Below, piece by piece: positions 2,287-30,003 of a DNA stretch of 59,413 nucleotides. Positions within the stretch are counted from its first letter, which is position 1. Each line of letters opens with the position of its first letter. This stretch comes from an uncultured Lachnospiraceae bacterium (GTDB taxonomy: Bacteria > Bacillota > Clostridia > Lachnospirales > Lachnospiraceae): positions 1-59,413 of the forward strand of contig CAMLYL010000010.1 of the NCBI GenBank assembly GCA_946491665.1. Reading direction: 5' to 3'. Made by a program: the position numbers and the translations under genes. The notes under the pieces were generated by a model, which made no database searches, was not told where the DNA came from, and saw nothing but the letters and a program-made list of their open reading frames with translations.

Positions 2287-2290
2287 AATC

Positions 2291-6427: not shown

Positions 6428-6730
6428 CTACACTCTGATATTGTGAATCATCTCTGCCACTTTCTGTTCACAGCTGTTATACTTACTCTTTGCTGTCTGT
6501 TCAAACTGATATACTTTTTTCAGATTCTGGATCATCGAACTCAGCATTTTCATATCACTCGCAAACGCTGCCTTGAATGCTTCACTTCCATCTCCATCCC
6601 ACATCTGATCCATTCTGGTGACACTTTCCTGCATTTTCTCCATTTCTGACTTCATCTGTGCGATACAGTTATTCACCTGTTCTGCATCACTTTGTAAGCG
6701 ATTTGTATTTATTTTAATTTTTGTCGCCAT
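6428..6730 (-). CDS. WXG100 family protein (W-D-G)
   Basis: 100 aa, start MATKIKINTNRLQ after GGAG. The turn is DQMWDGDGSEAFKAAF and the tail SKYNSCEQKVAE has YxxxE. Its start lies inside the end of the upstream 138-aa gene (17-bp overlap), so the two are probably co-translated and might form a heterodimer. Confidence 0.88.
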   Translation of the reverse strand: MATKIKINTNRLQSDAEQVNNCIAQMKSEMEKMQESVTRMDQMWDGDGSEAFKAAFASDMKMLSSMIQNLKKVYQFEQTAKSKYNSCEQKVAEMIHNIRV

Positions 6731-7130: not shown

Positions 7131-7225
7131 TTATCTCTCACTCTCTTTCATATCCGGAAGTATAACAGATTCTTTCCTTCAAATGTTGAAATCTCCCCGA
7201 AATGCACGTTTTAATCCCCGAAATA

Positions 7226-7474
7226 CTATACCAGGATCAATCTGCTTCCATCCCGGATTCTATTCTCCTGAAGCGTAAGGTTCCGATCCAGAGCTCTTTC
7301 ATCCCCCGTGGAATATAACATAAAACAACCAGAGCCATTACCCGGACCGCTCTTCGTCTTTTTTATAATCATCTCCGCGACTTCCACTATGATTTTCTCT
7401 ACCACCACCGATTCATCCAACCAAAAGTCACATGTCATATCTATCGCCGGCATATAGACATCCACAAGAATCAT
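7226..7474 (-). CDS. YukD/EsaB-like ubiquitin-fold protein
   Basis: 82 aa. It begins MILVDVYMPAIDMTCDFWLD, with alternating beta strands, and ends QENRIRDGSRLILV, matching the pattern of YukD/EsaB proteins (beta-grasp fold, final strand after an IxDGSxLxL motif). A strong GGAGG precedes the ATG. YukD/EsaB are small cytosolic T7SS components; position near EssC and the WXG100 genes supports this. Confidence 0.82.
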   Translation of the reverse strand: MILVDVYMPAIDMTCDFWLDESVVVEKIIVEVAEMIIKKTKSGPGNGSGCFMLYSTGDERALDRNLTLQENRIRDGSRLILV

Positions 7475-11900: not shown

Positions 11901-13941
11901 GAATCGGCAGCTGTTCCGGGCGGCTGATATGCAGCATATCAAAAAATGTCAGAGAAGCCGGTATCTCTCCTCCACGCTCCATTTCCAGCACCTTTACAGA
12001 AGACAGATGCCTCGCAAAACGTTCAAGACTTTCTCTTGTTACAGTATCAAAAACAATCTTCTGCCTCAATTCATTGCCAGCGAAAACATCGTACATACCA
12101 GAAAAGGCCGATGTATTCTCAATCACATATTCACAACTGTTTGGTAATTCCTCATAGCGTTTTGCCAGAAGTATTGTTGTCAGACCATAAGCATCATTCT
12201 GTTCAAACACATATTTTGCGAATGGCTCTCCCTCCAGCAAAGATGCATCCGATATAAAAATAATATACCAGGGAACAGGTATCTCTTTTTTCCCATACTC
12301 CTGCTGTGCTTCCTGTCGTGCCCGGAATATTTTGGTCAGTTCATAGAAAACATCGCTGGCTTCCGTCTTGTCTGACGCTACAAACCGATTTTTCTTATCC
12401 TCCGACCAGACATGCGGCAGCCACCGGGTATAATCCCACTCTTTCACATTTATTGCGGAAACCTTATCATAAATAAATCCAAGTTTTACATCCGTATAAC
12501 AGTTTCCGGCTGCAATCTGCGCAGTTAGCGATTTTACAATATCCATCGCGCCAGACAGATCCTCTCCGCCCACGATACCAATCAGCTTATGATCTGACAA
12601 ATCCAGCGTCACCGGAACCTGGTACAAAGTAGCATAATTATCCCTGATAAATTCAGGCTTTTCCGCGAGTTCATCCTGATACAGCGTAAATTTTCTTTTT
12701 GGAACATCAATTATTATCTGAAACGGGATGTCCCCAAGACCAAGTCTGTGATTCAGAAAATCCTCATGCGTGCGGTTTCTGTTCCAGAGCTGCCCTCTTG
12801 TCTCATCCACATTCAAACAATCCGAGGCACTCGGATATGTATCCTTCAGTTTCTGTGCACTCTGCTCATACTTTACTTTGATCTCCTCTGTTTTCTGGAT
12901 CAGATAGTCACTATAGGCTGACAGCCGGTGTTCCTCCCGGGCTTTTTCTTCTTTTTTCTGGTAACGTATATTTGCCAATGCCCAGAAAACACCTACTGCC
13001 GCCGATGCTATTGACATAATAAGCCCGGAAAACATAAAGAGAGAATTTCCACTTCCGGAAGCATTTGACGCAAAAATCATCATCATACACCCCAGCAGCA
13101 TCGGCAAAGCCATCGTAAGCGATGGACCAATGCTCAAAAACAGCGATTGCTGTCTGGATGTAACTGGATGCGGCGGGGCTTCAATCTCAATATGCTCTTC
13201 TACCAGTTTTTCATAATTTCTGGGGGCCCGACGATAAAATTCATCCTGTGCCGCCGCGGGATCCCCGACAGATGATACAGAGTTCTGCTCTTCATCCCCC
13301 TCAATAGGAAACAATTTTGACGGGTTAATCTGCAGTCGGTCTCCTGAAGTATCTATTGCCAGAATATCTCCAAGATACACCATATGAAGTCCCATAATAT
13401 TAATATAGTCACCAAATACAAGTCTTTTCTCCCCGTCATATCTCTGATTATTCACATAAGTGCCATTCTGACTGTTATTCACAATCCGATATCCGCTCTG
13501 ATCCCGGACAATTCTGGCGTGCAGCTTTGAAACAAAATTCATGTATTCATACACAATATCGCTGTCCTTATTTCTACCGACAGACAGCTCATTCACAGAG
13601 CGCAGGCTATATTTCCGAAACGGATGAAAAACAGATTCTGTCTCACTCACAATGATCGACAGCAACTCTTTGTGCCTGGTCTTGATACGGATCATTGCCC
13701 CGTCCTCCAGCACCGGCTCCGTATCTTTTTCTACCTCTTTTTCCACTCTGGCGAAAGAATCATTTTTTATTCTCCATTTACCATCCATAATCTCCAGACG
13801 GACATTCAGCCCCTCCTGGAGACCGAAGAAATCGGCCTCCAGCCGGATCATATAGTCTGCATTATTAATTGACGGAAGATAATACTCTTTAAATGCATCT
13901 TTTGAATATACTGCCAGTATCATGTTCATATCATTCCACAC
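8932..13941 (-). CDS. essC: T7SS motor ATPase, EssC/FtsK-SpoIIIE type
   Basis: 1669 aa. A first FHA-like region (1-90) is degenerate; a second FHA at about 110-175 shows LSVGRNKDSD, SKLHARI and NSQNGTYVNN. Two TM segments lie near 280-325. Three ATPase domains follow with Walker A motifs GTTGSGKSET (~724), GSIVSGKSTM (~1167) and GGTRTGKTNF (~1457); the first has the acidic strand LFIIIDEFAEL. This is the full EssC architecture that drives WXG100 export across the membrane. The GTG start follows GAGGGG; ATGs at 13929 and 13923 are alternatives. It begins at the stop of the 67-aa membrane protein. All three nucleotide loops look intact. Confidence 0.95.
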   Translation of the reverse strand: MWNDMNMILAVYSKDAFKEYYLPSINNADYMIRLEADFFGLQEGLNVRLEIMDGKWRIKNDSFARVEKEVEKDTEPVLEDGAMIRIKTRHKELLSIIVSETESVFHPFRKYSLRSVNELSVGRNKDSDIVYEYMNFVSKLHARIVRDQSGYRIVNNSQNGTYVNNQRYDGEKRLVFGDYINIMGLHMVYLGDILAIDTSGDRLQINPSKLFPIEGDEEQNSVSSVGDPAAAQDEFYRRAPRNYEKLVEEHIEIEAPPHPVTSRQQSLFLSIGPSLTMALPMLLGCMMMIFASNASGSGNSLFMFSGLIMSIASAAVGVFWALANIRYQKKEEKAREEHRLSAYSDYLIQKTEEIKVKYEQSAQKLKDTYPSASDCLNVDETRGQLWNRNRTHEDFLNHRLGLGDIPFQIIIDVPKRKFTLYQDELAEKPEFIRDNYATLYQVPVTLDLSDHKLIGIVGGEDLSGAMDIVKSLTAQIAAGNCYTDVKLGFIYDKVSAINVKEWDYTRWLPHVWSEDKKNRFVASDKTEASDVFYELTKIFRARQEAQQEYGKKEIPVPWYIIFISDASLLEGEPFAKYVFEQNDAYGLTTILLAKRYEELPNSCEYVIENTSAFSGMYDVFAGNELRQKIVFDTVTRESLERFARHLSSVKVLEMERGGEIPASLTFFDMLHISRPEQLPIRELWAKSRIYENIRGEIGEKAGGTPVFLDVHEKYHGPHGLVAGTTGSGKSETLQTYMLSLAINYSPDDIGFFIIDYKGGGMANLFDGLPHMVGSISNLSGNQVKRAMISIKSENRRRQRIFTENGVNNINLYTKLYKNGEAAQPIPHLFIIIDEFAELKREEPEFMKELISVAQVGRSLGVHLILATQKPSGTVDDNIWSNSKFRLCLRVQDQQDSKDMLHKPDAAYITQAGRCYLQVGNDEVYELFQSGFSGAIYDENMTAANIDIAKMIGISGKVEMTGSSVKLSQKKRAQNAWIELLLECLDTVMENFNILPAARETDSGMQQEIIAELYQELQRKDIDYAENKYNTDRLKEFLAVYMEDAATEGERSAERVIQRVQTHGYKLPQPKEKTQLDAIKEYLASQAKKNGYTHNIQLWMPILPSHIYLDTFSALKESSFSISGWMKQTGDWSLEIPIGMMDDPENQNQMPLTVDFAEDGHIAVCGSIVSGKSTMLQTMIYALIQKYDPSMVNLYLLDFSSKILGAFEQAPHVGGVMYENDTEKIGKFFNMIRGILNERKQLFGGGNYRQYVQVHGVILPAIVIFIDNYGTFKEKTKEAYEEDLIRLSKEGINHGIFLVVSGKSFGMADITSRVGENIKTVLCLAMADKFAYADLLHSMQISVLPEEGIKGRGLAWYGKRILEYQTALAFAAENDYQRQEQIEKLCRQMRESWDGVFARQVPEIPKKPVWSQFSALEDFRKSTENQRMLPVGYNMADASVYSLPLGDFYCYLVCGGTRTGKTNFMKLCIQSALQKDASICVIDGPGRELHACEKYENITYVTDEQSVFDYFKELTPEFKRRNVMKNQMLNEDREESEIAEVMSREKPYFIFISDLSWFVPFIYKAELDMRGFLETIIAKGRLHNIYFIAELALSKRSGLAGYRIYDSFVGYKTGIHFGGKVSENPLLPFDHIPYVQQAKAEKPGIGILPTGSEEYGAAKVVIPLAQMRHQ

Positions 13942-14324: not shown

Positions 14325-17300
14325 TCATAGAGATATTTTTCCTTTTTTATCGCCAGTGTTTACAAATCGCTTCCCTTTTTTAATATTCACGCATACCGTC
14401 ATTATTAAAATACTTAAAGAAGCAATCAACAATGCATACCATACAGGAAGATCAGCACGATCTCCAGTCTGTGGATTTGTTCTTCCAATATTTTGGATTT
14501 TACCGTCATCTCCAATATCAATACTATTACTATATTGTTTTATATCAATAACCGGAGCTTTATTGCCTTCTTCAATATTCAGGAATGTCAATTCATTCCC
14601 ATCCAACTGCATTTTCACCGTAAACACAGAGCCGTTTTCAGCAATAATATCATTTCCATTTAATGCAACCGGAGAACCGAGTTTAATATTGAATTCTTTC
14701 TGAGCAAGAACATTTTCATTAACATCTTTTACATAAATAATATGCTGACCGAATTCAACACTATTAAATTGGAAACTTCCGTTTTCGTCAGTTCTACTCG
14801 TTTGAACAAGAGAATGAATTTCAACAATTTTGTCTTCACAGGCTTTACCATTTTTATCAACTAAGATTCCTACAAATGTAATGCTTTCTGTGTTTCCGGC
14901 TTCTTTTTCTAATGCAATAATTTTATTTTCTGCATCCTGTAACCTGGTATAATTCGTTACATAGCCTTTTTGTGAGGCAGTTAGCATATTATATGCGTTC
15001 CTTGCAGCATTAACAGCATTTCTGCTGTCAAGCGTAATCGGATCCGGCAATGCGTCAATCATGCTGACAACTTTATCCGCAGCAGCTTTATCTTTGGCGT
15101 TTTCCTCTAACTGTTTAATTGCAGCTTCCGCACGATTCAATCTGTCGTAATTTGTTACAAGCGCCTGCTGGGCAGAGGTCAACTCGTTATAGGCTGTTCG
15201 CGCATCATTGATTATCTCTCTGTCATCCAAAGTAACTGTCGAAGGGATAGAACCAATCAGAGAAATAACCCTGTTAGCCGCGGCTTTATCTATTTCTGCC
15301 TGAGTAGGTTTTTCGTTTATCGTAAAGTTCTGTGCAGTACGATTCATTTCAGCGCCGCTATCACCTTTGCCGTCCCCATCTGTATCTTTACGGAACTCCA
15401 TGGCTATTGTATTGGTTCCATCCTTGTCTGCCCGATTCTCAAAAGTTTGGCTTTTGATAGTAATCTTTGTGCTGCCTGACTCGGAATCATAATCAACGCC
15501 AGGATCCAAAAGTTCACCGTTGAGCCATAATCCAACGAACTCACCATACTCACCGTTTGAAGTGAACTCCGTGTCTGCAATTTCATTCAATTCAAACGAG
15601 TAGTCACCAGTTTGTGTACCAATAGGTTGCTTAATAGAATACCCATCGTCACTATCCGATGCTAAATATACATTTTCGTCAGTATTAGGCTTTACGACTA
15701 ATTCAAAATCTTTATAGGACGGATCAAAGTATCCTTCTTCACCATCAACCAGATATTTTACTTCTACTGTGAAAGAATATGTGGTTTCAGAACTACCGTA
15801 AGGAACCGTAGGCACACCATAAATTTCGCCCGTTTCACTATTTAGAGTAATTCCCTCCGGCAGCGTTCCCGATCCATCAACAATGCTGAATTTTGTTTCA
15901 ACCCAATCATGCATATTGTTTGTAGCTACAATCTGCTGATAAGGTACATATTTAACTGCGTCGGAAAGAGTCTCTGTAATAATTTCAGGATTTTGAGCCG
16001 TACCATTCAATGTTATCATGACAGGCTCCTGCCCCTTTGCTCTGATAATTAAAGTACCCTCAACTTGACCATCGCCATCAGGCAGCAATCGAATTTTCGC
16101 CATATTTGCCAGCTCACCATAATCCGTATTGGTAGAAGTGGTGGTAAATGCTGCCAGGGTATCATTGCCATCTCCTCCGACTGTCCAATAAGGATCCAGT
16201 TTAACATTTTTAGCGTCAAGCAATTCTACACTGATATCCTCAAGAGGAGCATTGCCAATATTTGCAATCAAAATATCATGTTTAAATTCAAAATATTCAT
16301 CAAGAATAACTTCACGCTCTCTGGGGCCATACACATAAAGTTCAGGTCCATTGTTATTTAACTTTTTAAAAGTAACCCAATAATTGCGCTCATTTTCCTG
16401 ACCATCTTCATCAATAATTACCCCTGTATACTGTTGATTTTCCTCAGTAAAATCTCTTATATGATTTTCATCAACACGATTTCCGGTATCTTTTGAAACG
16501 GCATACACTCTATCAGTGTTTGCATACCAGAAATCAGGCTTAATACTGGACAAATCAGCATTAGCGTCATTGATAAAAATCGTCTGATAACCGTAGCCGT
16601 AATATGTATCCATATTTATATTTTTGCCATTTTCAACTACATAGGTATCATATTTCTCACCATCACTGCTTTCTGCTCCCTGCACTCTAAACCACGGATC
16701 TGCTTCGCCAATAATCGGATCATCAGTAAAAGTTCTAACATAGCTTTCATCATATTCTGGCTCATATTCCATCGCTAATACCAAGATTTTAAAAACACTG
16801 CCATCTTCAAAGAAAATAGTAAATGGCGTCCCTCCATTCTTATAGTTATAATCTGACTTATAACCACGAGAGGCTGCTGTTTTATCGGCAGGGATTAATT
16901 GTTCTTTTATATCTTCGCAAGCCGCTGCATCTTCTAATGTATCATAGTGTCCAACAACAGCTTTTGATACATAACTATTAGCATCATCTCCATACGTAGC
17001 GCCGTGTGCTTCTAAAACACAATAATATCCGAGTCCACTGAATAATCATCTTTCAGCATTAAGCAAAGTTCGTGAACTCCTGCTCCCGCAAATACCGAAT
17101 CAATATCCTCAAAGCCAATATGATCTGCATCAAGCATCACTATATCTGTAAACTCATCATTCACCTTTTGATAAAGATTTGCTTTAATGTAAGTAACATC
17201 TTTAACCGCCGCAAAACTAACGAAAGACTGATCAATAATCTGGTTGTCTTTATCAAAATATACTAATGCTAATATGGTTGCATTTTCCGAGCCATAAACA

Positions 17301-18052
17301 ATCGGTAAGCCATTCCCACTTTGCATCATATTTTGGTCTAATGCTTTAGAAGTTATGGGAGTTGCATTGGTAGTATTAATGAGATAATCCCAAAAATCAT
17401 ACACTTCCATCCTTATATTTGGATGTTCGTCAGCAACGGATGAAAGATTCAAATAATATTGACTTCCATTTTCCGGCTCTGGAACCGACCACTCGTTGGC
17501 CGTTATGTCAGAAAAAAGTTGGGTATTAACTGCTGACGTGACTCTTTCAGGTGTCACCTTGCTACGAACGCCGTTTGTATCCTGCAAATAAAGTTCGTAT
17601 CCGATTTCTTCTTGGATAGTATTTGTAACATAGACTTTAATGATATAGCGAATATTATCATCGTCTAATTGATTTGAAGATCCTATAATCAATTCGATAG
17701 TATATGCTTTTATTCCTGATTCAACAGATAAATCTATTGTTTCATTTTTACCAATATTATATTGCCGATATTCTTCCAAACCATCTTCATTTGATTTAAC
17801 ATATCTCCAAACAGTAGTTGCATCACTAGAAATTGTGATCTGATTACCATTTGAATCAACGAGCATACTCAAAACATCATCCAAATTCATGGATTTTAAC
17901 TCGTCATCAGTTTTTTCATTCAAAACCAGATATGCATTAACCTCTTTTAAGGGAAGCAGAGAAGCATGTGCAATCCTTCCAGTCGACAATAATGTTGTGC
18001 ATACCATTGCCAGCGCCAAAACAATTGCTATCAATCTTTTCAGTTTTTTCAT
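14325..18052 (-). pseudogene. Large surface protein, copy A, one-base frameshift (sortase-type anchor)
   Basis: Read as one gene of about 1242 codons. Signal peptide MKKLKRLIAIVLALAMVCTT, then the same domains as the intact 1409-aa protein at 25223-29452 up to VDSDI. There a single base is missing (near 17021-17030, GATATTATTGT against GATATCTACTGT) and the frame stops; the next frame continues CVLEAHGATYGDD and stays open to 14325. Later parts include Ig-like segments, two 60-aa helical modules (AYNELTSAQQALVTNYDRL), a carboxypeptidase-regulatory-like fold (GKACEDKIVEIHS), and a C-terminal NPQTGD motif, hydrophobic stretch and basic tail. NPQTG resembles sortase B signals and a sortase B gene lies at 31193. 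The start is coupled to the kinase stop (TGATATG). It could be a true pseudogene, a phase variant or a sequencing error. Confidence 0.82.
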
Positions 18053-18053: not shown

Positions 18054-20906
18054 TCACTTTCCTCCTGTCAGCTCATCTTGAGCCATTTTAATGAGTTCAT
18101 CTATATTATAAATGCGAGATTTTCGCACATTGCCCGTAGAATAGTCAAAATATAGTTCGTTATCAAACACATCACTGAGATACGGCAGCTCTGCAAGAGT
18201 TTCGCACTTATTATTCATTAAAATACCATAGTAATAATCATCAGTAGTAACATACTGGGCAATGATATACTCACCGATCTCTGTTATATATGTCAGATAT
18301 CCTTCTTCTTTTAATTCGCAGATTAGTTCATCTGTATTTTTATCATAGACAGCCGGTGATCTATGGAGCGGAGATTCTATTCTCAAAGAATCCGTATAAA
18401 ACTCCTCATATAATGACAAATCCGGCTCTTCAATCTGCTCTTCCGAAATCAAATTCCCATCCCGAGCATTATACGTTAAAAGTGTCCCGTCATTATATGT
18501 AACCTCTAAATATGATTCATTATCTGTCCGAATAAACTGCTGATCATATACTTGGCTCGCATTGGGAATATCCACTTCTTTTATTAATGTTCCGCCAATG
18601 TCATACACACGAAATTGTTTATACGAAAACAACATTACCGTTTTTCCATCAGCACTTATCCTTGCCTCATCATGCTCATATGACGGGTCATATGTAAAAA
18701 TTTCAGCTTCAGGATGATTTTCATATTTCAGGATTTTGATTACAGGCGTATCTATTCCGCCAATAAGTGCCACACCGTTGGATAATTGAAGAAAATCTCC
18801 TGTATCATTCTCTTCAATTCTTGTAAGCAATCGTGAATCGGCATTGAAAAACATTACCGATTCATCCGTCTCAATTACAGTTTGCATATTATTTGTATCG
18901 TAATGCATTATTTTTTCGGATGTTGTTACCAACGGGTTTTGCTCACCGGTTACCGGATGAATTTTTACTAAGAGGTTGTCTCGCAATACATATATTCCGT
19001 TTTCGTCAACGTTTACGCCAAAATAGCCATTTGCATCAAATCCACCGGTCTGAACCTTGTCAACTGTATCTACCACCGCAAATATTGAATTATTTTCCCC
19101 CGTTGCAGAAAATGCTAAATACTGTTCATAAAAACCGCCTTCAAAATGACTATATCCTGAAGTGCTGTCGAATATTTCAATATTATTATCGGAATTAGTT
19201 AAATCATAAACTTCCAAAGAGCCATCTGAAAAACTTATCCCCAGTAAAGTCCCATCCTTGTTTAGTTCGAATAAGTTATCATTCGGGTTAGCAAAACTAT
19301 CATTTACCGTTACACTCTGATGTTTTCCTTTTAAATCTATCTCAGTTTTTACAGCTCCAGTTAGAGCATCATAAATAATGGCAGTGCTTTCGTCTTTGTA
19401 AATCGCCGCTACTGTTTTAGAATCCTGTGATACACAGATTGCTGTACAATTAGCACCCGACCAAAGCGTTTCATTTCTTGTGATATCATACACTTTTATT
19501 CCATCGATCCCGGCATAAACAATGGTCTCATTATTTAAAAATTCCACCTCTGCTAAAGCTGATTTTTCTGCCTCTAAAGTAGCAACGATATTTGCATTTT
19601 CAGTATCGATAACAGCAATATATCCTGAATACAGACAAGCGGCATTATGACCGTTCGGAGAAATAACCATGTACAGGGGATTGCTTGGCAGCTCTACTAC
19701 CTTGTGTTTTTTGTAACCATCCGACAAGTCATAAACACCTAAGGCATCAGATATAGCTTTCTGAGCTTCAGGAATATACGCAGGATTAAACAAATTCACA
19801 TTTGTTGGCAATGCCTGAAGTGCATAGTCAAGCGCTGTTTCCGAGTCCCCCTCAGCTAATGCCGTCTGGGAATATTCTGATAATTTAAGCCAGCTTTCCT
19901 TAACCTGCATTCGCTTAAGCCCAACAAAAGTTGTCGAGACACCGATCACAAACAAAACCGAAAAAATAATAGCTGCTGCAACATTGTTTCTTTTTAAACG
20001 CCTGGTTCTCTCATCATTCTTATGTAAATTAGAGAAAGCTTCCAACATTTCATCGGCAGACTGGTATCTTAAATCCGGATTCGGATTCATAGCCTTTGAA
20101 ATGATTTTTACAACTTGAGGACTGAACTCTTTATCAGAAAGAGGCACAACTTCCATAGCATTTTTTGCTGTTTTTTTCCCACTAAGTAAATGGTATAGTG
20201 TTGCGCCAAGGCTATAAATATCCGACCGAGTATCCGGCACAATTTTTTTTGTTGATGAGCTCGAACCGCTGTTGGATATAGTAATCGTTGCTGTTTCATC
20301 AAGCAATGTCGCTGTTTCGTTATCGTCAATTGTCGCTGTTCCACTACCGAATGAAGTAAAATCTAATCCATAATGTTCTGGTGATGCGTATCCTGCGCTG
20401 CATCCAACTACGTTTTCTTCTCCAAGTGCAAGTGCAATATTAAAGTCTATCAAGCATATATCGCCATATGGTGTGCGCATAATATTGGTTGGTTTTATAT
20501 CACTGTGTACATATCCGCGCGGTGGATTTCCGTGCGTGGGGCTATGCAGATAGCTGAGTGCTTCTAAAAGCTGTTTTGCCCACTTAATTACTTGGGGCTG
20601 AGAAAATTTTTCGCCTCGTTTTAAAGGCTTGTCGAGACTTTCACCTTCAATATAATCCATTACTGTATAGACCGTTTCGTCTTCAACAAAGAAGTCATAT
20701 ACTTGCGGAATATATGAATGACTCAACTCTTTCAGAATATCGACTTCGCGCCGCAGCAATTCGGGACGAGCAGTAATTTTACGCTTGTCCGCTTTTAAAA
20801 CAACTTTTTTCCCCAAACGCTGGTGAATAGCTAAATAAACATTTCCACCACCGCCTGAGCCTATTTTTCCAATCAATTCATATGTAGACGCTATCACTTT
20901 TGGCAT
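18054..20906 (-). CDS. Transmembrane Ser/Thr protein kinase with extracellular beta-propeller
   Basis: About 950 aa from MPKVIASTYELIGKIGSGG, preceded by GGGTAGG. The kinase domain (1-295) has the Gly loop GSGGGGNVYLA, VVLKAD, the catalytic loop HSDIKPTN (HSD in place of HRD), DFN in place of DFG, and SPEHYG. The activation region contains a Thr-rich insert (GTATIDDNETATLLDETATI) likely to be autophosphorylated. One TM lies near 310-335 (VAAAIIFSVLFVIGVSTTFV). The outer part is a long WD40/PQQ-like propeller of repeated strands (IAVIDTENANIVATLE, IKVYDITRNETLW). Its stop overlaps the ribosome site of the surface-protein gene, so the two are translationally coupled; it may monitor that protein. 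The PP2C and FHA genes upstream complete the circuit. Confidence 0.88.
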   Translation of the reverse strand: MPKVIASTYELIGKIGSGGGGNVYLAIHQRLGKKVVLKADKRKITARPELLRREVDILKELSHSYIPQVYDFFVEDETVYTVMDYIEGESLDKPLKRGEKFSQPQVIKWAKQLLEALSYLHSPTHGNPPRGYVHSDIKPTNIMRTPYGDICLIDFNIALALGEENVVGCSAGYASPEHYGLDFTSFGSGTATIDDNETATLLDETATITISNSGSSSSTKKIVPDTRSDIYSLGATLYHLLSGKKTAKNAMEVVPLSDKEFSPQVVKIISKAMNPNPDLRYQSADEMLEAFSNLHKNDERTRRLKRNNVAAAIIFSVLFVIGVSTTFVGLKRMQVKESWLKLSEYSQTALAEGDSETALDYALQALPTNVNLFNPAYIPEAQKAISDALGVYDLSDGYKKHKVVELPSNPLYMVISPNGHNAACLYSGYIAVIDTENANIVATLEAEKSALAEVEFLNNETIVYAGIDGIKVYDITRNETLWSGANCTAICVSQDSKTVAAIYKDESTAIIYDALTGAVKTEIDLKGKHQSVTVNDSFANPNDNLFELNKDGTLLGISFSDGSLEVYDLTNSDNNIEIFDSTSGYSHFEGGFYEQYLAFSATGENNSIFAVVDTVDKVQTGGFDANGYFGVNVDENGIYVLRDNLLVKIHPVTGEQNPLVTTSEKIMHYDTNNMQTVIETDESVMFFNADSRLLTRIEENDTGDFLQLSNGVALIGGIDTPVIKILKYENHPEAEIFTYDPSYEHDEARISADGKTVMLFSYKQFRVYDIGGTLIKEVDIPNASQVYDQQFIRTDNESYLEVTYNDGTLLTYNARDGNLISEEQIEEPDLSLYEEFYTDSLRIESPLHRSPAVYDKNTDELICELKEEGYLTYITEIGEYIIAQYVTTDDYYYGILMNNKCETLAELPYLSDVFDNELYFDYSTGNVRKSRIYNIDELIKMAQDELTGGK

Positions 20907-20946
20907 ACAAAACATCCTACCCTTTTTGTTGCTATTCGGTTACAAA

Positions 20947-21181: not shown

Positions 21182-22009
21182 CTAATCAAGAAGCCATTTT
21201 TTTATGAAAAATATTTTTTGCCCAAGGCTCGTATATTTTCTGCCAAATGATTTAATTAAAATTACTGAAATATTATCTTTCTCTTCACGCTGCTTATTTA
21301 AATCAATTAAATATTGGCATTGTTTCTTCATCGTCTTTTGATTTTTGAGGCGTTCAAAAACAAAGTTTTCAAAAATTTCCCGCTCTGTTATCTTATGTCT
21401 GAAGCCGTCAGAACATAACATGTACACCCCCTGTCTGACTGATCCCGACACAATCTGTGGTTCCACCTTTCGCGATGCACCTACACACTGAAGAAGCATA
21501 TTCCGATATTTATTAGTTCTGGCTTCTTCCTGCGTCAGATTTCCCAACATAACCTCTCTTGCAACATAAGTATGGTCACATGTCATCTGCTCCAGGGATT
21601 TCCCTATATAGTACAGCCGGGTATCTCCTACATGAACTAATACAAACTGGTCATCTACAAAAAGAACTCCCGTAAATGTCGTTCCCATTTTTTCTCCGAC
21701 TTCTTGCCCATATTCCTGAATTCTGCAATTTAAAGATTTCAATAGTAATGCCCATTTGTTTCCAATAACATCCATATCTACATGCCTCAGTTCATTAGAC
21801 ATCTCTGCCGAAAACCATTCCTGAAATGCCTTAATCACCATTGCACTTGCAATCTCCCCTTTAGATAAACCTCCTATTCCATCACAAATAATTGCTATCA
21901 GCACTTCCCTGTTGCCGGATAAAGTATGTTTCAGAAAAATGCCGTCCTGATTCACATCTTTCATTCCCGCATCTGATTCCGCTATTGCCATATATCGCAT
22001 CACTATCAC
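21182..22009 (-). CDS. PP2C-family Ser/Thr phosphatase
   Basis: 275 aa. The metal-binding motifs of the PPM/PP2C family are all present: NQDG near the start, CDGIGG, GTTFTGVLF, VHVGDTR, LCSDGF and DNISVILIK. It would remove phosphate from substrates of the kinase encoded 280 bp downstream. The GTG start at 22009 follows AAGGA; the ATG at 22000 is an alternative. It has no TM, so it is cytosolic. The FHA gene lies 20 bp upstream, making FHA, phosphatase, small membrane protein, kinase and surface protein one gene run. Confidence 0.93.
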   Translation of the reverse strand: MIVMRYMAIAESDAGMKDVNQDGIFLKHTLSGNREVLIAIICDGIGGLSKGEIASAMVIKAFQEWFSAEMSNELRHVDMDVIGNKWALLLKSLNCRIQEYGQEVGEKMGTTFTGVLFVDDQFVLVHVGDTRLYYIGKSLEQMTCDHTYVAREVMLGNLTQEEARTNKYRNMLLQCVGASRKVEPQIVSGSVRQGVYMLCSDGFRHKITEREIFENFVFERLKNQKTMKKQCQYLIDLNKQREEKDNISVILIKSFGRKYTSLGQKIFFIKKWLLD

Positions 22010-22028: not shown

Positions 22029-23153
22029 TCAAACCCGAAAAAGAAATTCTTCATTTGCAAGCTTCAATATATCACCATCAAAAATCTCTATCTCATGTTC
22101 CGTTGGTAAAACTCTGTTATTAATAAATGTCTTATTTTTTGATCGAAGATCAAAAACATAATATCTGCCATCCCGGATAATAATATCTGCATGGCTCCGG
22201 CTCACAGCTCCATTGTTCATCACCACATAATCAACACAATTTTCATCTTTCCCTATACGAAACACTAGTTTATTCACTTTGATCTCTTCTTCTGTTACAA
22301 CTCTGATCAACGTTGGATATTTAGAGTCATCCTCTGCCTTTTTCTCAAACAACTCAGCCGACTGATCCAGCAACACTGTGTTCTCATCTTCCAATATTAC
22401 TGTCGCATCCTCATTCTTCTCATACTGAGTTTTAAAGGCTTCCATATCTTGGAGTATTATATCTGTTAAATCATCATCTCCTGATTGTTGTTCTCCAGTA
22501 TTTACACTGGTTTCAGACTTATATATCTTTTGCTCTAATGCAGAAACTTCAGAATACTTTCCATTACGTATTTTGTCTCCTTTAATAAGATCTACTATTT
22601 TATGATTCAGCTGATAAATATATAGTTCTATTTTTTCTGCGTCGAAATAATCCATTTTCTTGATAAAATAACTAAAATCTGATAGATACATAGAATCCAC
22701 ATTCTCCAGGCATACTGAATATACAATCTGCTCAATAAAATCCAAAATATCTGCACTGCCGTGCGGAGTTATCACCGGCACATACAAGAAAATTAATTCC
22801 TTTGTGGGTTCATTGAAAAAAACATATTTTGAATCCAATACAAGATTCCCCCAAGATAACCCCAGTTGTCTGAGCCTTTTTACAATATCTACAATTTGTT
22901 CTATCAAAAAGAAAAAATCATATTCTGATATAGGTCTGTTTAACCTTGAATATAAACTTATTCCCTGAGGCCCAGTATATTCAAGCTTATTTTTTTTTGA
23001 ATAATTCAGTTTAAAAAATCCATAATAAGACTTTTTATCTAAAAGATCACACTGTTTTATATTCAATGTATAATTCGAATCCACTTTTAACTTTACTTTG
23101 AGCTTTCCATCCTTTTTTCTTATTTTTATTTTCTGAATCACCTTATCATTCAT
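22029..23153 (-). CDS. FHA-domain protein with DUF6382-like N-terminus
   Basis: About 374 aa from MNDKVIQKIKIRKKDGK, chosen because GAGGTG precedes this ATG. Residues 1-160 resemble DUF6382 regions found in Lachnospiraceae FHA proteins; the stretch GLSWGNLVLDSKYVFFN recalls the pseudokinase fold of EssB/YukC. A Thr-rich linker (DATVILEDENTVLLDQ) precedes the C-terminal FHA domain, whose key parts are FRIGKDENCVDYVV, SRSHADI and SKNKTFINN. The linker looks like a phosphosite that the FHA domain could bind, as in GarA/OdhI. It is probably the phosphothreonine reader of the adjacent kinase and phosphatase. No TM is seen, unlike EssB. Confidence 0.82.
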   Translation of the reverse strand: MNDKVIQKIKIRKKDGKLKVKLKVDSNYTLNIKQCDLLDKKSYYGFFKLNYSKKNKLEYTGPQGISLYSRLNRPISEYDFFFLIEQIVDIVKRLRQLGLSWGNLVLDSKYVFFNEPTKELIFLYVPVITPHGSADILDFIEQIVYSVCLENVDSMYLSDFSYFIKKMDYFDAEKIELYIYQLNHKIVDLIKGDKIRNGKYSEVSALEQKIYKSETSVNTGEQQSGDDDLTDIILQDMEAFKTQYEKNEDATVILEDENTVLLDQSAELFEKKAEDDSKYPTLIRVVTEEEIKVNKLVFRIGKDENCVDYVVMNNGAVSRSHADIIIRDGRYYVFDLRSKNKTFINNRVLPTEHEIEIFDGDILKLANEEFLFRV

Positions 23154-23324
23154 CAAACTGCACCTCATAATAAAAACAGTATTATTCAGAATTATTTTCA
23201 ATCATATCTATAAATAAAAATAATCCCTGCCCGCCAAAGCATTTCCTTACAGACAGAGAAAATTTTATAGATATCAAACTCAGCAATTTTTCACATAATT
23301 GCCAGCACATCTGTGCTCTCCCCA

Positions 23325-24777
23325 TCATCTCAGATACTCTTTTTCCCACGCCTTTAGCTGATTCAGTGAATCCTCTTCGCTCATTACATTCCTCCCGGCA
23401 GCTATACTCTCCAGAAAATCATACACCGCATCCAACACATCTCGTTCCCTGAAAAAGAAAATACGGAACTGATTGTGGGAAACATTCTGAAGAAGCATCC
23501 GATCTCCGGCATTTACAATCACCTCCCAGAGATAACTAAGAGGAAATTCATCTTCCGGGACCAGGTGGATATGATACCATCCTTCCTCTGCGGCCTTCAG
23601 AATCCGGCAAATGATTTTTCGTCTGTCTTCCGGAGTCAGCGGCCCAGAAAAAAGGGCTTCCGGATATTCTTTCATTACTCCGGTTCTGACAAATTCTTCA
23701 GCCGTAGCCATACTGGTCAGAACTGTAATCTGTCCCTGCCGGTATGCTTCATGCAGCGCGGCCGAATATGTAATATAGCTTTCCGTCATTTCCTTATAAT
23801 CGGGAATTTCTGGATTCAGATATTTCCGTATCAACCGTTCATCCCAGAACTGGGTTCGGCACAATCCGGAGCACATTTCTACGGTATTGGAAAAATCAGC
23901 TGTTTTGGCATAATCCATCCCCCACCCGGCAAGTTTCACCCCAGCTCCGTCCATCCTTGACATCAAAGGATGCGTTTCCTTACAAATATCGTCAAAAAAA
24001 TCTGTCAGATACTGAATCGTCTCTGCATCATTGTGCAGAATTGCAGCCTTATGATCTGAAGAAATCTGGATGGCATATTCTTCAGTCACAGCCAGACACG
24101 GCATAACATTCATCAGACCATAATGTTCTTTTGATTTACCATAATAATATCGTGGCTCATAACAACTGATCCCTACCCCATATCGCAGGATCCGACGTAT
24201 ATTTTCCAGATTGCTGCAACCATCCTGTCCGCTGTCCGATTCCAGACAAATGATCTGAATCACTTTAATATCTGCATGCTCACTGCAGGCCAGCACCAAA
24301 GGTTCCATCAGGACAGCATAATCAGGCTGAATAAGTATACGAATTACCCCCCCCCCGGGATTTCAGCCGTCTGATTACATAGTGAACCATACGGCTGACT
24401 TCCAGTTCTCCTTTGATCAGTCGGTCAGTTCCCGCCTCAATGGAAACCGGATCCCCCAAAGCATCATATACATTTATTCCCTCTTCATCCACCGTCAGAA
24501 GAGAACGCAGAATCTCCTTTACTTTCCGGCGTCTGTTATAATTCAATAGTCCAATCTGCTCAATCTCATAAGCCTCCATGACTTTCATACGCTCATCCGG
24601 AGTCAAATGAAGCTCTGATATAATCCTTTCCAGTTGTGCTATATTACGAAAAGATCGTTTGCCTTTTAGATACTGATAGAGTGTTGCCCGATCAATTTTA
24701 CACCGTATAGCCAGTTCCGGTATATTTCTGTCTCTTTGATTAACAAAATAAGTAAGCGTTTCAGATAAAACCGACAT
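23325..24777 (-). pseudogene. HTH transcriptional regulator interrupted at a G10 tract (possible phase variation)
   Basis: Two ORFs are best read as one gene of about 484 codons. The 5' part starts MSVLSETLTYFVNQRDRN after AGAGGA and contains a helix-turn-helix (IPELAIRCKIDRATLYQYL). It runs to RLKSRGGG and ends 33 bp later at TGA. If the run of ten Gs (minus strand, 24347-24356) were nine, the frame would continue GGVIRILIQPDYAVLMEPLV into the 3' ORF, a 327-aa ligand-binding-like region. I see no separate ribosome site for the 3' ORF, supporting one original gene. Off by slippage, a sequencing error or a mutation are all possible. A strong promoter lies just upstream. Confidence 0.75.
24347..24356. 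repeat. Mononucleotide tract C10/G10 inside the regulator
   Basis: Ten C on the plus strand. A length of 3n gives one frame and 3n+1 another: ten separates the two ORFs while nine would join them. Such tracts mutate by slippage. Confidence 0.8.
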
Positions 24778-24818
24778 CTTCCAAATTCCTCTCTTTATCT
24801 TTTGCACTTATTGAAATA

Positions 24819-24848
24819 ATGATACTACGAAAAATTTATGAGCGTCAA
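24819..24848 (-). promoter_or_regulatory. SigA-type promoter of the HTH regulator
   Basis: TTGACG (24843-24848) and TATCAT (24819-24824) with an 18-bp spacer. The whole element is conserved at 29953-29982. It should start transcription about 30 bases before the HTH start. Confidence 0.7.
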
Positions 24849-24869
24849 TCTGTGGCAGATTCTGTGGCA
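24849..24869 (-). promoter_or_regulatory. Twin TGCCACAGA repeats, candidate operator
   Basis: Two exact 9-mers (24849-24857 and 24861-24869) 12 bp apart, directly upstream of the -35. The same pair with the same spacing occurs in the second copy (29983-29991, 29995-30003). They may bind the HTH protein encoded downstream. Confidence 0.6.
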
Positions 24870-25222: not shown

Positions 25223-28200
25223 CTAATAGTAATATTTTCTTTTCCGTATTGCTATTCCGACCGTTACAGTTGTAGATATCGCCAGCATGCACAGCCATAA
25301 TGCAGTTTCCGTCTCATCTCCTGTCTGCACTGAATTCGATTCTCCATTTCCACTTGCACCGTTTGCATTTCCGGCATTACTGCCCCCTTCTTGTGCAAGA
25401 TCACTGTTCAGCATCGGTATTACTTCAGTGTAGCTGTCGCCGCAAACCGCACATGTATAAGTCCGGATCCCTGTTTCCGTGTCTGTTGGTTCTTTGGTAA
25501 CAACGCCGTTATCGTACTTGTGTCCCGCAGCCGGAATCCTTTCCGCATAAACATCACCGCAGTATTCGCACGCCAGTCTCTTCAATCCCGATTCCAGACA
25601 TGTAGCTTCCTCAATAATTTCCTCGGTAAATTTATGTCCGCCGGCAAGAATCGTCTCCTGCCTGATTGCCCCGCACTCTGTACATGTGTAAGTCATCATT
25701 CCATTTTCAAGACAGGTCGCTTCCTTAGTAACAATACCGTCATCATATGTATGCAGGTGTGTTCCATCTCCAAGCGCAGGGATCACTTCTGTAAAAGTAT
25801 CACCGCATACTGAACAGGTATATGTTCTCAGTCCATCTTCTGTCTCCGTTGGTTCAGTCGTCATTTCCACTATATAGCTGTGCCCTGGCGCCGGGATTCT
25901 TTCCGTGTAGGTATCGCCGCATTTTCTGCAGATGCCCGTTCTGACTCCGTCTGTTGCACAGTCTGTTCCCGGCGTAACCGTGATTTCATACTCATGTCCT
26001 GTTGCCACAGTAACCTCTGTTTTCATAAGTACACCGCATCTGGTACAGTAATAGGATGTTTCCCCGTTTTGCGTACATGTCAGTTCCTGCGTCACCTGTC
26101 CCGCACCGGCAATATGTCCTAACGCCGGGATCGCTTCCGTATACTGGCTACCGCATGAACAGGTATAAGTTCTCACGCCTGCTTGAGTACATGTAGGAGC
26201 TTTTGTTACCCGTCCTGAACCATAAGAATGCGTATGCTCTATATAGAAGTTCTGTGAAGTTTTTTTCAACTCATTGCTGTTGCTGCTGTCATTTTTACTG
26301 CTTGGATCGCTTGTACGATATTCCGCCGCAATTGTATTTCTCTCCCCGTTTTTATTGGCTTTATTCGCAAATGTCTGCGCCCTGATAGTTATTCTGGTAC
26401 TTCCTTCCTCCGCTGTATAATCCACATCTCTCTCAAGCTTTTCACCATTCAGCCATACGTCAACAAACTGATCAATCTCACCCTCCGAACGGAATACCTG
26501 GTCACTGTTGTAATCCTCCAGGACGTAATGATGGTTACCGGCAGTTGTTTCTGTACCGATCGCATCCAGAATACTGTAATTATCCGCCGCGTCTGTTGCA
26601 TTGAATACATTGTCGTCCGTATTATCATTCACCGTCAGCGTAAGTTCTACCTCTGATGGATCGAACGCGTAATTTTCGCTGGTACTTTCAAAATATGTGC
26701 TTACAGTAAATGTAAACGTGCCTGTTTCCTGCGGCATGCCGTAAAGTTCACCGGTTTCCTCAATCAGATCAACACCATCCGGCAGGCTTCCTGCGGTCAG
26801 TTCATATGAAACATTTACCCACTCATACATGTTATCTGTTGTGATTAGGTAAGAATATGGAACATATTTTACCGCATCGTCTACCTCTTCTGTCGTAATT
26901 TCCGGATTCTGCGCCAGATCCGACAGAATGACCGTTGCAAGCAGCTCTGAATTTTCCGCATCTCCTTCCTTACCGGAATAAATCTTTAAAGTCCCTCCAA
27001 TCTCTCCTTTACCGCTTGCGGGTGGAACCAGACGGATCTTTGCCACGTTCGAAAGCTCGCCATAACTGGTCGAATCCAATTCCAGAGAAAAGTCGTCCGG
27101 GCATGCCTCCAGTGTACTATTTCCTTCACCGCCAATCGTCCAGTAATCATCTAATTCCACATTCGTTGCATCCAAATCAAGCCACAGATCAGTCAACGGT
27201 TCATCGCCAATATTAGCAATAAAGATATCATGTTTATTTTCATGGTACTCGTCCAGAAATACGGAACGTACATCCGGTGCAAGCGGGCCCGCAACATATA
27301 ATTGCGGCCCTGAAGCCTTTTTCACAAAAGTCACGTCATAGTTTTTTGTATGCGGTCCGTTCTCGTCCGTTATGATCACGCTGAAAGTCGCGTCAAGTGT
27401 ATTTTCTCCCTCAAGGAACGAAAGTACCGAGCCTTCCTGAAACTCTCTTCCATTTGCGTATATTCTGTCAATGGAAATGTTTTCGTCGTTGGCTTTCCAG
27501 AATGTGGGAACAAAACTGTCTATATCTTCATTGATGAATACAGTCTGATATCCATAACCATACATGGTGTCAATATTGATATTTTTCCCATTTTCAATTA
27601 TGTATGTGTCACAGGCATTGCCCTCTGTGTCATTTACGCCGTTTACTCTGAACCAGGGATCTGATTCGCCGATGATGGGGGTGTCGGTATATTCCCTCCT
27701 ATAATCAGGATCATATTGTGAATCATACCCCATAGCAAGAACCTGTATTTTCCAAATATTTCCATCTTCAAAGAAAATTGTGAAAGGTGTTCCGCCTTCT
27801 TCGTAATTGTAATTGGCTTTATACCCTCGATTGGGGGAATTTTTATCTGCGGGAATCAGCCAATCCTTTATATCCTCACATTCCGAGGCTTCATCCAAAG
27901 AATTATAGTGACCTTCTACAGCCTTTACTACATAACTGTTAGCGTCATCTCCGTATGTTGATCCATGGGCATCTAAAACACAGTAGATATCCGAATTAAG
28001 AGAATATCCATTCTTCAACATTAAACAAAGTTCATGAATCCCATCATCGGCAAATACTGAATCCATATCTTCATAACCGTAATGCTCTGCATCAAGCAAC
28101 ACAATGTCAATCAGCTCATCTCCTTCTTTATTGTAGAGACCCGCATTAATATATGAAGTGTCTGCAACGGCCTTAAATGTTACGAAAGACTGGCCGATCA

Positions 28201-29452
28201 ACTGATCCGATTTATCATAATATACTATCGCAAAATAATCTGCCACACCATATTCAATCGGAAGCCCTTCTCCCGACTTCTCCATATCGCGATTTAATAT
28301 TCTGCTCGTAATAGGCTGCGCATTCGTTGAAAACAAATATTCCCAAAAGTCATAGACTTCCACACGCATATCAGGATGTTCATCTGCTTCCGAAGAAATC
28401 CCTAAATAATATTGACTTCCCTCCGGGCATTCTGGCACAGCATATTCATTCGCAGTTATATCACCAATCTCAACAAGCTGGGTATTAATCGCCGAGGATG
28501 TCCGCTCCGGTATCACCTCGTTTCGTGAACCATTACTGTCTTCTAAATACAAAGTATAATCCAACTCTTCCCGAACAGTATTTGTTACATAAACTTTAAC
28601 AATGTATCGTACATTATCGCCATTCAACTGGCTGCCTGACCCTACAATAAGTTCCAAATGATAATTATATATGTTTTCTTCAGTCGTTAAATCGATCGTT
28701 TCCCCTGTACCTATTGAGTACTCCTCATAGTTTTCTACATTCGCATCTTGATCCTTTACATATCTCCATACAGTTGTTGCATCCGACGGAAAAACAGAGA
28801 TGGGATTTCCTTCTCTATCTACCATACTGTTCAGCATCTCATCAACAGAAAAAGTTTTAAGTTCCTCATCCGTCTTTCCGTTCAGTATCAAATATGCCTC
28901 AACTTCCTCCAGTGGCAGTAACGACATCGTTGAGACGTCCCCCTGCTGCATCGCTGCCAGTGCATTACTCAGATTTTCCATCACAGCACTGTAGAGTTCC
29001 GGATAATTCTCGATAAAATAATTGCATTCATCAATTTCCAACCCATCAAACGCATTTATTGCATCTGTAGTCTGCTGCATTACTTCATTGAGTTCTTCTT
29101 CCGACATATTCTCTGCTTCGAAAGCCTCCGGAAGCTGTTCAAAAAGAGTTACTACCTCTTCTATCGCCGTCATATCCAGATTTGCTCCTGCATTACCGAT
29201 TTCGCCGCTGGCCATAGCCTGTGCATCTTCGTCTTTGCTTTCTTCACTTAATCCATCGCTTTCCTCATCATTGTTCTGCTCTGTTGATTGGATTTCATCA
29301 CCAGATTCTTCCGTATTGCTGCCGTCCTCTTCTACGGCTGCATTTGCTGTCATCTCATCAGCAAAAACCGTCGCCGGATTATTGCCAATACACACTGTTG
29401 CCGTCATGATCATTGCAATCAGCAAAGCCAGACAGCGTTTTGTCTTCTTCAT
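25223..29452 (-). CDS. Large surface protein, copy B, with CxxC repeat region
   Basis: 1409 aa. Signal peptide MKKTKRCLALLIAMIMTATVC, then an acidic stretch (residues 35-85) and a helical region absent from copy A. Residues about 180-1120 are homologous to copy A through Ig/cadherin-like segments (PEITTEEVDDAVKYVPYS, LPDGVDLIEETGELYG). About 1125-1345 carries seven modules of ~39 aa with CTxxG, a CxxCG pair and an IPALGH end, as in many Lachnospiraceae surface proteins. The C-terminus is SVQTGDETETALWL plus a hydrophobic segment and RKRKYYY; the usual Pro of the anchor motif is missing. It starts right after the stop of the chimeric ORF (GGAGG inside its end). Likely cell-wall attached; ligand unknown. 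Confidence 0.88.
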   Translation of the reverse strand: MKKTKRCLALLIAMIMTATVCIGNNPATVFADEMTANAAVEEDGSNTEESGDEIQSTEQNNDEESDGLSEESKDEDAQAMASGEIGNAGANLDMTAIEEVVTLFEQLPEAFEAENMSEEELNEVMQQTTDAINAFDGLEIDECNYFIENYPELYSAVMENLSNALAAMQQGDVSTMSLLPLEEVEAYLILNGKTDEELKTFSVDEMLNSMVDREGNPISVFPSDATTVWRYVKDQDANVENYEEYSIGTGETIDLTTEENIYNYHLELIVGSGSQLNGDNVRYIVKVYVTNTVREELDYTLYLEDSNGSRNEVIPERTSSAINTQLVEIGDITANEYAVPECPEGSQYYLGISSEADEHPDMRVEVYDFWEYLFSTNAQPITSRILNRDMEKSGEGLPIEYGVADYFAIVYYDKSDQLIGQSFVTFKAVADTSYINAGLYNKEGDELIDIVLLDAEHYGYEDMDSVFADDGIHELCLMLKNGYSLNSDIYCVLDAHGSTYGDDANSYVVKAVEGHYNSLDEASECEDIKDWLIPADKNSPNRGYKANYNYEEGGTPFTIFFEDGNIWKIQVLAMGYDSQYDPDYRREYTDTPIIGESDPWFRVNGVNDTEGNACDTYIIENGKNINIDTMYGYGYQTVFINEDIDSFVPTFWKANDENISIDRIYANGREFQEGSVLSFLEGENTLDATFSVIITDENGPHTKNYDVTFVKKASGPQLYVAGPLAPDVRSVFLDEYHENKHDIFIANIGDEPLTDLWLDLDATNVELDDYWTIGGEGNSTLEACPDDFSLELDSTSYGELSNVAKIRLVPPASGKGEIGGTLKIYSGKEGDAENSELLATVILSDLAQNPEITTEEVDDAVKYVPYSYLITTDNMYEWVNVSYELTAGSLPDGVDLIEETGELYGMPQETGTFTFTVSTYFESTSENYAFDPSEVELTLTVNDNTDDNVFNATDAADNYSILDAIGTETTAGNHHYVLEDYNSDQVFRSEGEIDQFVDVWLNGEKLERDVDYTAEEGSTRITIRAQTFANKANKNGERNTIAAEYRTSDPSSKNDSSNSNELKKTSQNFYIEHTHSYGSGRVTKAPTCTQAGVRTYTCSCGSQYTEAIPALGHIAGAGQVTQELTCTQNGETSYYCTRCGVLMKTEVTVATGHEYEITVTPGTDCATDGVRTGICRKCGDTYTERIPAPGHSYIVEMTTEPTETEDGLRTYTCSVCGDTFTEVIPALGDGTHLHTYDDGIVTKEATCLENGMMTYTCTECGAIRQETILAGGHKFTEEIIEEATCLESGLKRLACEYCGDVYAERIPAAGHKYDNGVVTKEPTDTETGIRTYTCAVCGDSYTEVIPMLNSDLAQEGGSNAGNANGASGNGESNSVQTGDETETALWLCMLAISTTVTVGIAIRKRKYYY
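25400..26235 (-). repeat. Seven protein-level CxxCG modules
   Basis: Tandem coding repeats of about 115 bp. Each reads roughly xTCTxxGxxTYTCxxCGxxYTExIPAxGH; modules 4 and 7 have lost the first Cys. Paired cysteines could bind metal or form disulfides outside the cell. Confidence 0.8.
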
Positions 29453-29453: not shown

Positions 29454-29912
29454 TCATTCTCCTCCTGTCAGCACTTCCTGTGCCATTTTTATTTCTTCGT
29501 CTATACTGTAAATCTGAGATTTTCTTATTTTCCCCGAAGGGTAGTCAATGTACAATTCACCGGAGATCACATCACTTAAATAAGGCAGATACGCCACAAC
29601 TTCGCACCTATTATTCATCAGTACGCCATAATAATAACTATCTACAGTAATATACTGAGCGATGATATAATCTCCAGTTTCTGTTATATAAGTAAGATAT
29701 CCTTCCTCGTTCAATTCGCAGACCTTTTCATCTGTCTCTGTGTCATAAACTGTCGGCGCTCCATGGAGCGGAGATATATTATGAAAAGAGCGTTTGCCCT
29801 TCAGATACTGATAAAGTGTCGCCCGGTCAATTTTGCACCGCATGGCCAGTTCCGGTATATTTCTGTCTCTTTGATTAACAAAATAAGTAAGCGTTTCAGA
29901 TAAAATCGACAT
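29454..29912 (-). CDS. Chimeric ORF: HTH N-terminus joined to kinase propeller C-terminus
   Basis: 152 aa. Residues 1-45 are almost identical to the start of the HTH regulator (MSILSETLTYFVNQRDRN and the same HTH). From SPLHGAPTVYD onward it matches the last 100 residues of the kinase (EEGYLTYITETGDYIIAQY, ending AQEVLTGGE). The join at about 29774-29776 shares AT with both parents and keeps the frame, so this looks like a deletion between a former HTH gene and kinase gene in a second copy of the locus. It keeps the promoter, ribosome site and coupled start of the surface protein. It is probably a remnant; a small DNA-binding protein is not excluded. Confidence 0.85.
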   Translation of the reverse strand: MSILSETLTYFVNQRDRNIPELAMRCKIDRATLYQYLKGKRSFHNISPLHGAPTVYDTETDEKVCELNEEGYLTYITETGDYIIAQYITVDSYYYGVLMNNRCEVVAYLPYLSDVISGELYIDYPSGKIRKSQIYSIDEEIKMAQEVLTGGE

Positions 29913-29952
29913 CTTCCAAATTCCTCTCTTTATCTTTTTCACTTATAAAATA

Positions 29953-30003
29953 ATGATACAATGTAAAATTTATGAGCGTCAATCTGTGGCAGGTTCTGTG
30001 GCA
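29953..30003 (-). promoter_or_regulatory. Second copy of promoter with twin TGCCACAGA repeats
   Basis: TTGACG (29977-29982), 18 bp, TATCAT (29953-29958), preceded by two TGCCACAGA 9-mers 12 bp apart. It would drive the chimeric ORF and surface protein B. Confidence 0.68.

Follow-up and report, generated by a model that had tools for sequence, protein, structure and literature searches.

The regulator gene and its neighbourhood

The window, that is, the whole stretch of 59,413 nucleotides that was analysed, carries a C10 at 24347-24356 on its plus strand, which is G10 on the coding minus strand; the next-longest G/C run within the window is 7. The tract splits a helix-turn-helix (HTH) regulator gene exactly where the preliminary description had placed it. 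The HTH open reading frame (ORF, 24322-24807), whose likely start is the ATG at 24777, preceded by a purine-rich ribosome site recognised by eye (GAGAGGAATTTGGAAG), meets its stop codon a few codons past G10, and the ORF that follows (23325-24308, 327 aa from ATG to stop) is one base off relative to it. The frame of this C-terminal half is free of stops back into G10 (341 residues, counted from 24350), and its ATG lies 13 bases from the stop of the HTH ORF. Before this ATG no Shine-Dalgarno-like sequence was seen by eye, in agreement with the earlier statement that the 327-aa ORF has no ribosome site of its own. The features of the regulator and of the genes behind it are as follows:

24322..24807, minus strand: N-terminal half of the regulator, comprising an XRE-type HTH, a linker and the first strand and helix of the second domain (aligns to residues 1-143 of the relatives, or most of them)
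24347..24356, minus strand: G10 tract and frame-change point (run scan and ORF comparison)
23325..24350, minus strand: C-terminal half of the regulator, tentatively PLD-like (open frame; modelled structure)
22029..23201, minus strand: DUF6382 and FHA protein, the next gene past the regulator
21182..22009, minus strand: PP2C-type Ser/Thr phosphatase
18054..20915, minus strand: Ser/Thr protein kinase, with weak, sub-threshold beta-propeller matches in its C-terminal region
14325..18052, minus strand: surface-type protein gene, broken near 17020 into 17012-18052 and 14325-16784 (ORF comparison with a paralog)
8932..13941, minus strand: EssC, the type VIIb secretion ATPase (NCBIfam TIGR03928, 1080.9 bits against a cutoff of 778.4)
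5020..7474, minus strand: YukD (7226-7474) and WXG100-type proteins (5020-5337 and 5399-5701 above the NCBIfam cutoff)

The genes after the regulator lie on the same strand in the order DUF6382-FHA (gap 123), PP2C (gap 19), Ser/Thr kinase (gap 266) and surface-type protein (gap 1). By eye, the end of the surface protein (14325-14500) shows an NPQTG-like motif, a membrane segment and a basic tail, and a sortase-like gene is found at 31193-31999. Downstream of the kinase array, EssC, WXG100 proteins and YukD occur together, as in a type VIIb locus; positions 916-14208 hold EssC, YukD, several WXG100 proteins, a trypsin-FHA protein and a DUF4176 protein. Among the ORFs scanned in this locus, none was named as the membrane component EsaA or EssB. 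The preliminary description had the regulator heading a kinase and surface-protein locus, which the same-strand array and the conserved promoter element presented below bear out, but it had missed the type VII secretion genes further downstream.

In a related type VII locus (genome G143), the FHA, PP2C and kinase genes are present and no such regulator was found in the 19 kb read, so that control of secretion by the regulator would be a local arrangement and is unproven. In other close relatives the neighbours of the regulator resemble, by eye, genes for surface proteins, lipoproteins or zinc-ribbon proteins. In G315, the nearest congener, the 18 kb beyond sigG contain no ORF with at least 45% identity to the window. 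A defence-system reading was set aside, since the PADLOC matches on the kinase and the PP2C phosphatase look generic and none falls on the regulator halves.

The regulator in its relatives and its predicted domains

Judged by comparison with homologs, the ORFs separated by G10 are the two halves of a single gene. We defined a close clade of 14 copies (the window, G111, G124, G223, G326, G327, L189, L190, L192, L193, L194, L195, L198 and L199), counting L197/G111, L191/G327 and L196/G326 as single copies each. Of the 13 other close relatives, 12 read through the site with the N and C halves in the same frame (10/11 when the named loci are taken alone); in G327, the contig end removes about the first 70 residues, and the tract site is still covered. 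From the MS-x-LS start, the regulator is 482-484 aa long in six named relatives (L189, L190, L192, L193, L195 and L198), matching the single protein of about 484 aa that had been proposed, and it is 503 aa long in G111. The 11 loci from the named-genome scan have 40-58% identity. Thirty homolog loci (L019-L048) were taken from the searches of the family and the genus; in 27 of them the gene is a single ORF of 475-635 aa, and the other three, L021, L043 and L045, are shorter.

The gene is patchily distributed. The C half has matches in 40 of 299 sampled genomes of the family and in 2 of 20 genomes of the genus (the window's own genome included in both), and the second genus match is a distant homolog; within the genus of G223, 5 of 16 genomes have a match. 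Congeners could not serve as a source of tract variants, given that 1 of the 19 other genus genomes has even a distant homolog. A mobile-element origin was likewise rejected: the C half was unmatched in plasmid and phage records, and a scan of viral contigs confirmed no relative.

The single frame in 12 of the 13 other close relatives runs counter to the preliminary description's own alternative, homologs that exist as two separate proteins. If the two were genuinely separate proteins, an HTH fragment and a C domain would be translated independently, by reinitiation at the ATG 13 bases past the stop, to form a two-piece regulator. The closeness of stop and ATG is compatible with this, and so is the copy in Eubacterium sp. 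An11 (L194:3573-5026), where a frame change within residues 134-143, at a place with no run of at least 6, breaks the gene into two ORFs (148 and 345 aa) only a few residues from the corresponding position. The frame of the other relatives and the missing ribosome site before the second ORF argue against it, and we regard it as very improbable. The An11 split falls within ten residues of the G10 site. The available text of a published report lists Eubacterium sp. An11 among pure cultures sequenced by Illumina NextSeq (PMC6069880).

The preliminary description had also looked to relatives for tract lengths to compare, and here the outcome was negative: none of the 13 other close relatives carries a G/C run of at least 6 at the tract site (0/13), which means that the tract does not represent a conserved switch. 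Shorter runs lie upstream of the tract position in two homologs: a G6 in L193, about 20 codons away, and an in-frame G8 in the distant homolog L022 (in G118), 31 codons away. The lack of a run in relatives also bears on the idea that the frame is restored during expression, slippage of RNA polymerase or ribosome on G10 yielding both short and full-length proteins. The length of the tract and frames exactly one base apart would suit such slippage, but relatives use no run at the site, and polymerase slippage is best known on A/T runs; we hold this to be very unlikely.

The N half of the window regulator matches HTH_31 below threshold (E = 0.0066, 17.2 of 27 bits). HTH_31 is matched at E ≤ 0.01 by 17 of 26 homologs (best 2.9e-8), and the HTH region has profile matches to XRE and controller-protein structures, so that a Cro/C1-type HTH is recognisable through the relatives. 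The AimR-type receptor family (NCBIfam NF038310) gave a weak match of the HTH region only, at 18.8 bits against an equivalog cutoff of 70, and the regulator is not a member.

For the C half, a Pfam search returned nothing above threshold. An AlphaFold2 model of the window's C half, aligned with 21 relatives, is confident (pLDDT 89.2, pTM 0.83), with the first strand at residues 2-6. The best Foldseek match of this half is a phospholipase D (7e0m, E = 1.1e-8), but with a TM-score of 0.33, and the catalytic HxKxxxxD motif is present in none of 31 sequences (some of which are incomplete), which argues against a phospholipase D enzyme. Together, the PLD matches and the missing motif suggest, tentatively, a non-enzymatic PLD-like sensor. 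Regulators of the TrmB/TrmBL2 type combine a DNA-binding domain with a PLD-like sugar-sensing domain. TrmB (3qph) and TrmBL2 (5bpi, 5bpd) are among the Foldseek matches, lower in the lists, weak (E about 1e-3) and with low TM-scores; the N-terminal part of TrmB is a TrmB winged helix, whereas that of the window regulator is XRE-type. We therefore describe the protein, tentatively, as an autoregulating transcription factor that consists of an XRE-type HTH, a linker and a non-enzymatic PLD-like sensor-type domain.

In a model of a full-length homolog (L019; pLDDT 84.1, pTM 0.82), residues 105-112 and 118-129 are of low confidence, and the G10 site corresponds to residue 171, in the loop between helix 152-168 and strand 173-176. 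A position exactly at the domain boundary was rejected because residue 171 follows the first strand and helix of the C domain; the run thus falls within the start of the second domain, at about 30% of the gene's length, and not in the flexible linker. The out-of-frame product accordingly has the HTH but lacks almost the entire second domain. The preliminary description had the whole locus switching on and off, which would be one possible consequence; as the short form retains its DNA-binding domain, 'off' may mean 'sensor-less'.

A candidate operator at two promoters

Upstream of the regulator lies a repeated promoter element that recurs at a second transcription unit of the window. The corresponding features are:

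24851..24869, minus strand: candidate operator TGCCACAGAATCTGCCACA, a tandem direct repeat (TGCCACA-N5-TGCCACA) just before the -35 of the regulator
24819..24848, minus strand: promoter-like site of the regulator, TTGACG-N18-TATCAT (consensus scan only)
29985..30003, minus strand: second copy of the candidate operator, before the unit of chimera and surface protein
29454..29942, minus strand: in-frame chimera, in which the first ~46 codons of a regulator duplicate (the HTH region) are joined, near 29775, to the 3' end of a kinase duplicate
25223..29452, minus strand: surface-type protein of 1409 aa with a putative Ig domain (PF05345), the unbroken paralog of the gene at 14325-18052

At both sites the order is TGCCACA-N5-TGCCACA, GA, TTGACG-N18-TATCAT, and a similar arrangement of operator and promoter is found in most relatives. 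The genome has two perfect copies of the operator, located only ahead of the regulator and of the second surface-protein unit. In its 27-base form with up to 3 mismatches, the element occurs exactly twice in the genome, both times in the window, with 0 control matches; when the 19-base form is allowed up to 2 mismatches, one further genome match (1 mismatch) appears, inside an ORF on the opposite strand.

The element was found, with at most 3 mismatches of 19, upstream of all 13 examined regulator genes (the window included, G327 being cut off) and of the chimera. In each of these 14 upstream regions, 0 of 500 mononucleotide shuffles reached the element score, the pattern itself having been defined on four of the 14. 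Across eight genomes and with at most 2 of 19 mismatches, we counted 19 matches, compared with 3 for the reversed control pattern; lone matches with 2 mismatches (both in G315, both in G124) are near chance level and were therefore not used. Second, promoter-placed copies precede zinc-ribbon-like genes (by eye) in G223 and G326 (L181 and L182; 0 and 1 mismatch), possibly marking a small regulon, and a second copy in G111 (1 mismatch) lies outside the listed ORFs. In the distant loci L019-L048, 27 of 30 have no good match (3 to 6 mismatches of the 14 half-site letters); weak matches, with 3 mismatches, are found in L026, L032 and L044, which are among those 27.

Since the element is conserved beside the -35 of the regulator's own gene in several genera, there is strong evidence, at the level of sequence, that the candidate operator mediates autoregulation. 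The conserved promoter element would likewise tie the regulator to the array behind it and to the promoter of the second surface-protein unit.

Origin and possible consequences of the frame change

We compared the number of long G/C runs with the expectation under Markov models fitted to the window. For runs of at least 10, models of order 2-4 predict 0.006-0.05 per window and 0.3-2.7 per 3.35-Mb genome, and models of order 0-1 predict 0.09-0.10 per window and 5.0-5.6 per genome. In the genome, runs of at least 8 were observed in nine distinct places, with two runs of 10, one of which is low-complexity sequence at a contig end. With about 0.3-5.6 expected and two seen, a G10 somewhere in this genome is unremarkable. 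Tract length alone is thus little proof; the notable point is the position, at a frame change inside a gene that is mostly whole there in relatives. A genome-wide excess of G-runs was dropped as an argument for selection, the hand extrapolation from G6/G8 counts suggesting no more than a modest excess at lengths of at least 9. Several of the long runs in the genome are intergenic or at a contig end.

Elsewhere in the genome, a G9 at C20:30975 (L140:4976-4984) throws the last ~57 codons of a GHKL-type sensor kinase (named by eye) out of frame, an HGFGISN motif among them. The genus yielded no close ortholog of the kinase, so we do not regard this run as a second switch that has been conserved and treat it as a parallel case only. 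That one genome has two signalling genes whose G-runs are out of register is suggestive, and no more than that. Several other flags of the scan for runs at frame changes resemble chance open frames or neighbouring genes, and of the cases examined homology backs the G10 and C20 tracts alone.

Four of the 14 close copies of the regulator are disrupted, in four different ways that are always downstream of the HTH, and all keep the HTH half. Apart from the G10 tract and the An11 split, there is an out-of-frame deletion in G223, with about 46 residues lost, and an in-frame deletion of 52 aa in G326; three of the four disrupted copies have no homopolymer of at least 6 at the lesion. This pattern fits recurrent loss of the sensor as well as it fits a dedicated switch. 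Within the window, the break in the surface-protein gene (16784-17020) is also outside any long homopolymer.

With the disrupted relatives, the broken surface-protein gene next to the array and the duplicate that has collapsed to a regulator-kinase chimera, simple decay is a serious rival: the gene would have been inactivated, as an ordinary loss of function, at a hot spot for mutation in a locus that is duplicated and decaying, and the tract would have no role in switching. The variety of lesions and the absence of homopolymers from three of them speak for it, as do the lack of the tract in relatives and an in-frame TAG in the tandem paralog of the C20 G9 kinase. On the other hand, G10 itself is reversible by slippage, so a strictly one-way loss is unlikely; both halves are still open (the 341 residues of the C half are stop-free), the C half is confidently modelled and the operator is perfect. 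On balance we consider loss of function unlikely, while giving it more credence than any of the other alternatives.

A more technical explanation is that most cells carry the gene in frame and that the draft sequence has miscounted a long G-run. The draft consists of 171 contigs and is 84% complete, long G-runs are error-prone, and poly-G at contig ends and N gaps is seen in genomes of the genus. Runs of at least G9 are present in 17 of 20 genus genomes (own included), and a good part of 30 inspected G-run loci of the genus are contig ends or N gaps; the poly-G stretches of 13-32 at such places (e.g., L055, L057, L058, L065 and L073) are likely assembly artefacts. The G10 tract, however, is internal to a 59-kb contig and away from its edges. 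Furthermore, all 22 sense-strand ORFs of the congener G315 that were matched to the window between 30 and 59 kb correspond to a single unbroken frame (22/22; three antisense ORFs and matches below 45% identity were left out beforehand), which makes a general sequence error less likely. A miscount at a long G-run is, moreover, often itself a sign of mixed lengths. An assembly error at the tract is, in our estimate, quite improbable.

Two features of a contingency locus are present at the site: a run long enough to be expected to slip lies within ancestral coding sequence, and its length would decide read-through into the second half. A third, retention of the run in relatives, which is common at selected loci though no strict requirement, was not seen. 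The frame shift by the ten-letter run is probably a reversible accident, and phase variation of the regulator through G10 is plausible. In the mechanism that we propose, the out-of-frame gene would, in the assembled register, yield a product limited to the DNA-binding part and the linker, plus a few stray residues. Replication lengthens and shortens runs of this kind, so cells would be expected to alternate between two forms of the regulator, one with the sensor and one lacking it. The regulator would act on two promoters, its own and that of the chimera and surface-protein unit, through the tandem TGCCACA repeat that adjoins the -35 of each; its own promoter would head the array of FHA, PP2C, kinase, surface-protein and, by presumed read-through, type VII secretion genes. 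A flip of register would then change expression from both promoters, in whichever direction the regulator acts and whatever its second domain may sense. That the slippage-prone G10 flips an autoregulating regulator between these two forms, and so alters the two operator promoters, is a reading to which we give about an even chance.

A more far-reaching version of this mechanism would be a domain-shedding switch, in which the HTH has repeatedly and independently been uncoupled from the sensor, once by way of G10. Cells would alternate between a sensor-gated and a sensor-blind autoregulated DNA-binding protein and would thereby switch a commensal type VIIb and surface-protein locus through a qualitative change of the regulator, not through its simple loss. 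We rate this version as improbable.

Discussions of phase variation in gut-type Clostridia mostly concern DNA inversion. Should the tract prove variable, a gut-type member of the Clostridia would have a homopolymer switch within the coding sequence of a regulator of its type VIIb secretion locus. Regardless of any switch, the XRE/PLD-like family and the tandem TGCCACA before the -35, conserved across several genera, provide a testable pair of regulator and operator. A literature search by titles and the starts of abstracts gave no description of this combination, and the mycobacterial espR study came nearest.

Homopolymer frame switches are well known, and homopolymer switching at a type VII regulator is established elsewhere, according to the available text of two reports (PMC2831843, PMC11898584). 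In Listeria, a hypermutable poly(A) tract in the coding sequence of inlA acts as a frame switch (PMC2831843, available text). The likeness to the window is that a run within coding sequence puts the product out of frame; in inlA, a surface-protein gene, it is an A-run close to the 5' end, whereas in the window it is a G-run in a regulator, about 30% into the gene. An indel in a homopolymer upstream of espR modulates ESX-1, a type VII system of Mycobacterium tuberculosis (PMC11898584, available text). Here the likeness is that a single-base homopolymer indel at a regulator gene alters the output of type VII secretion. As far as that text describes it, the espR tract lies in the 5'UTR, tunes the amount of protein and has observed variants, whereas the tract in the window lies within the coding sequence of a two-domain regulator and is known from one assembled sequence; the secretion systems differ as well, that of espR being ESX-1 and that of the window being of the VIIb type of Firmicutes.
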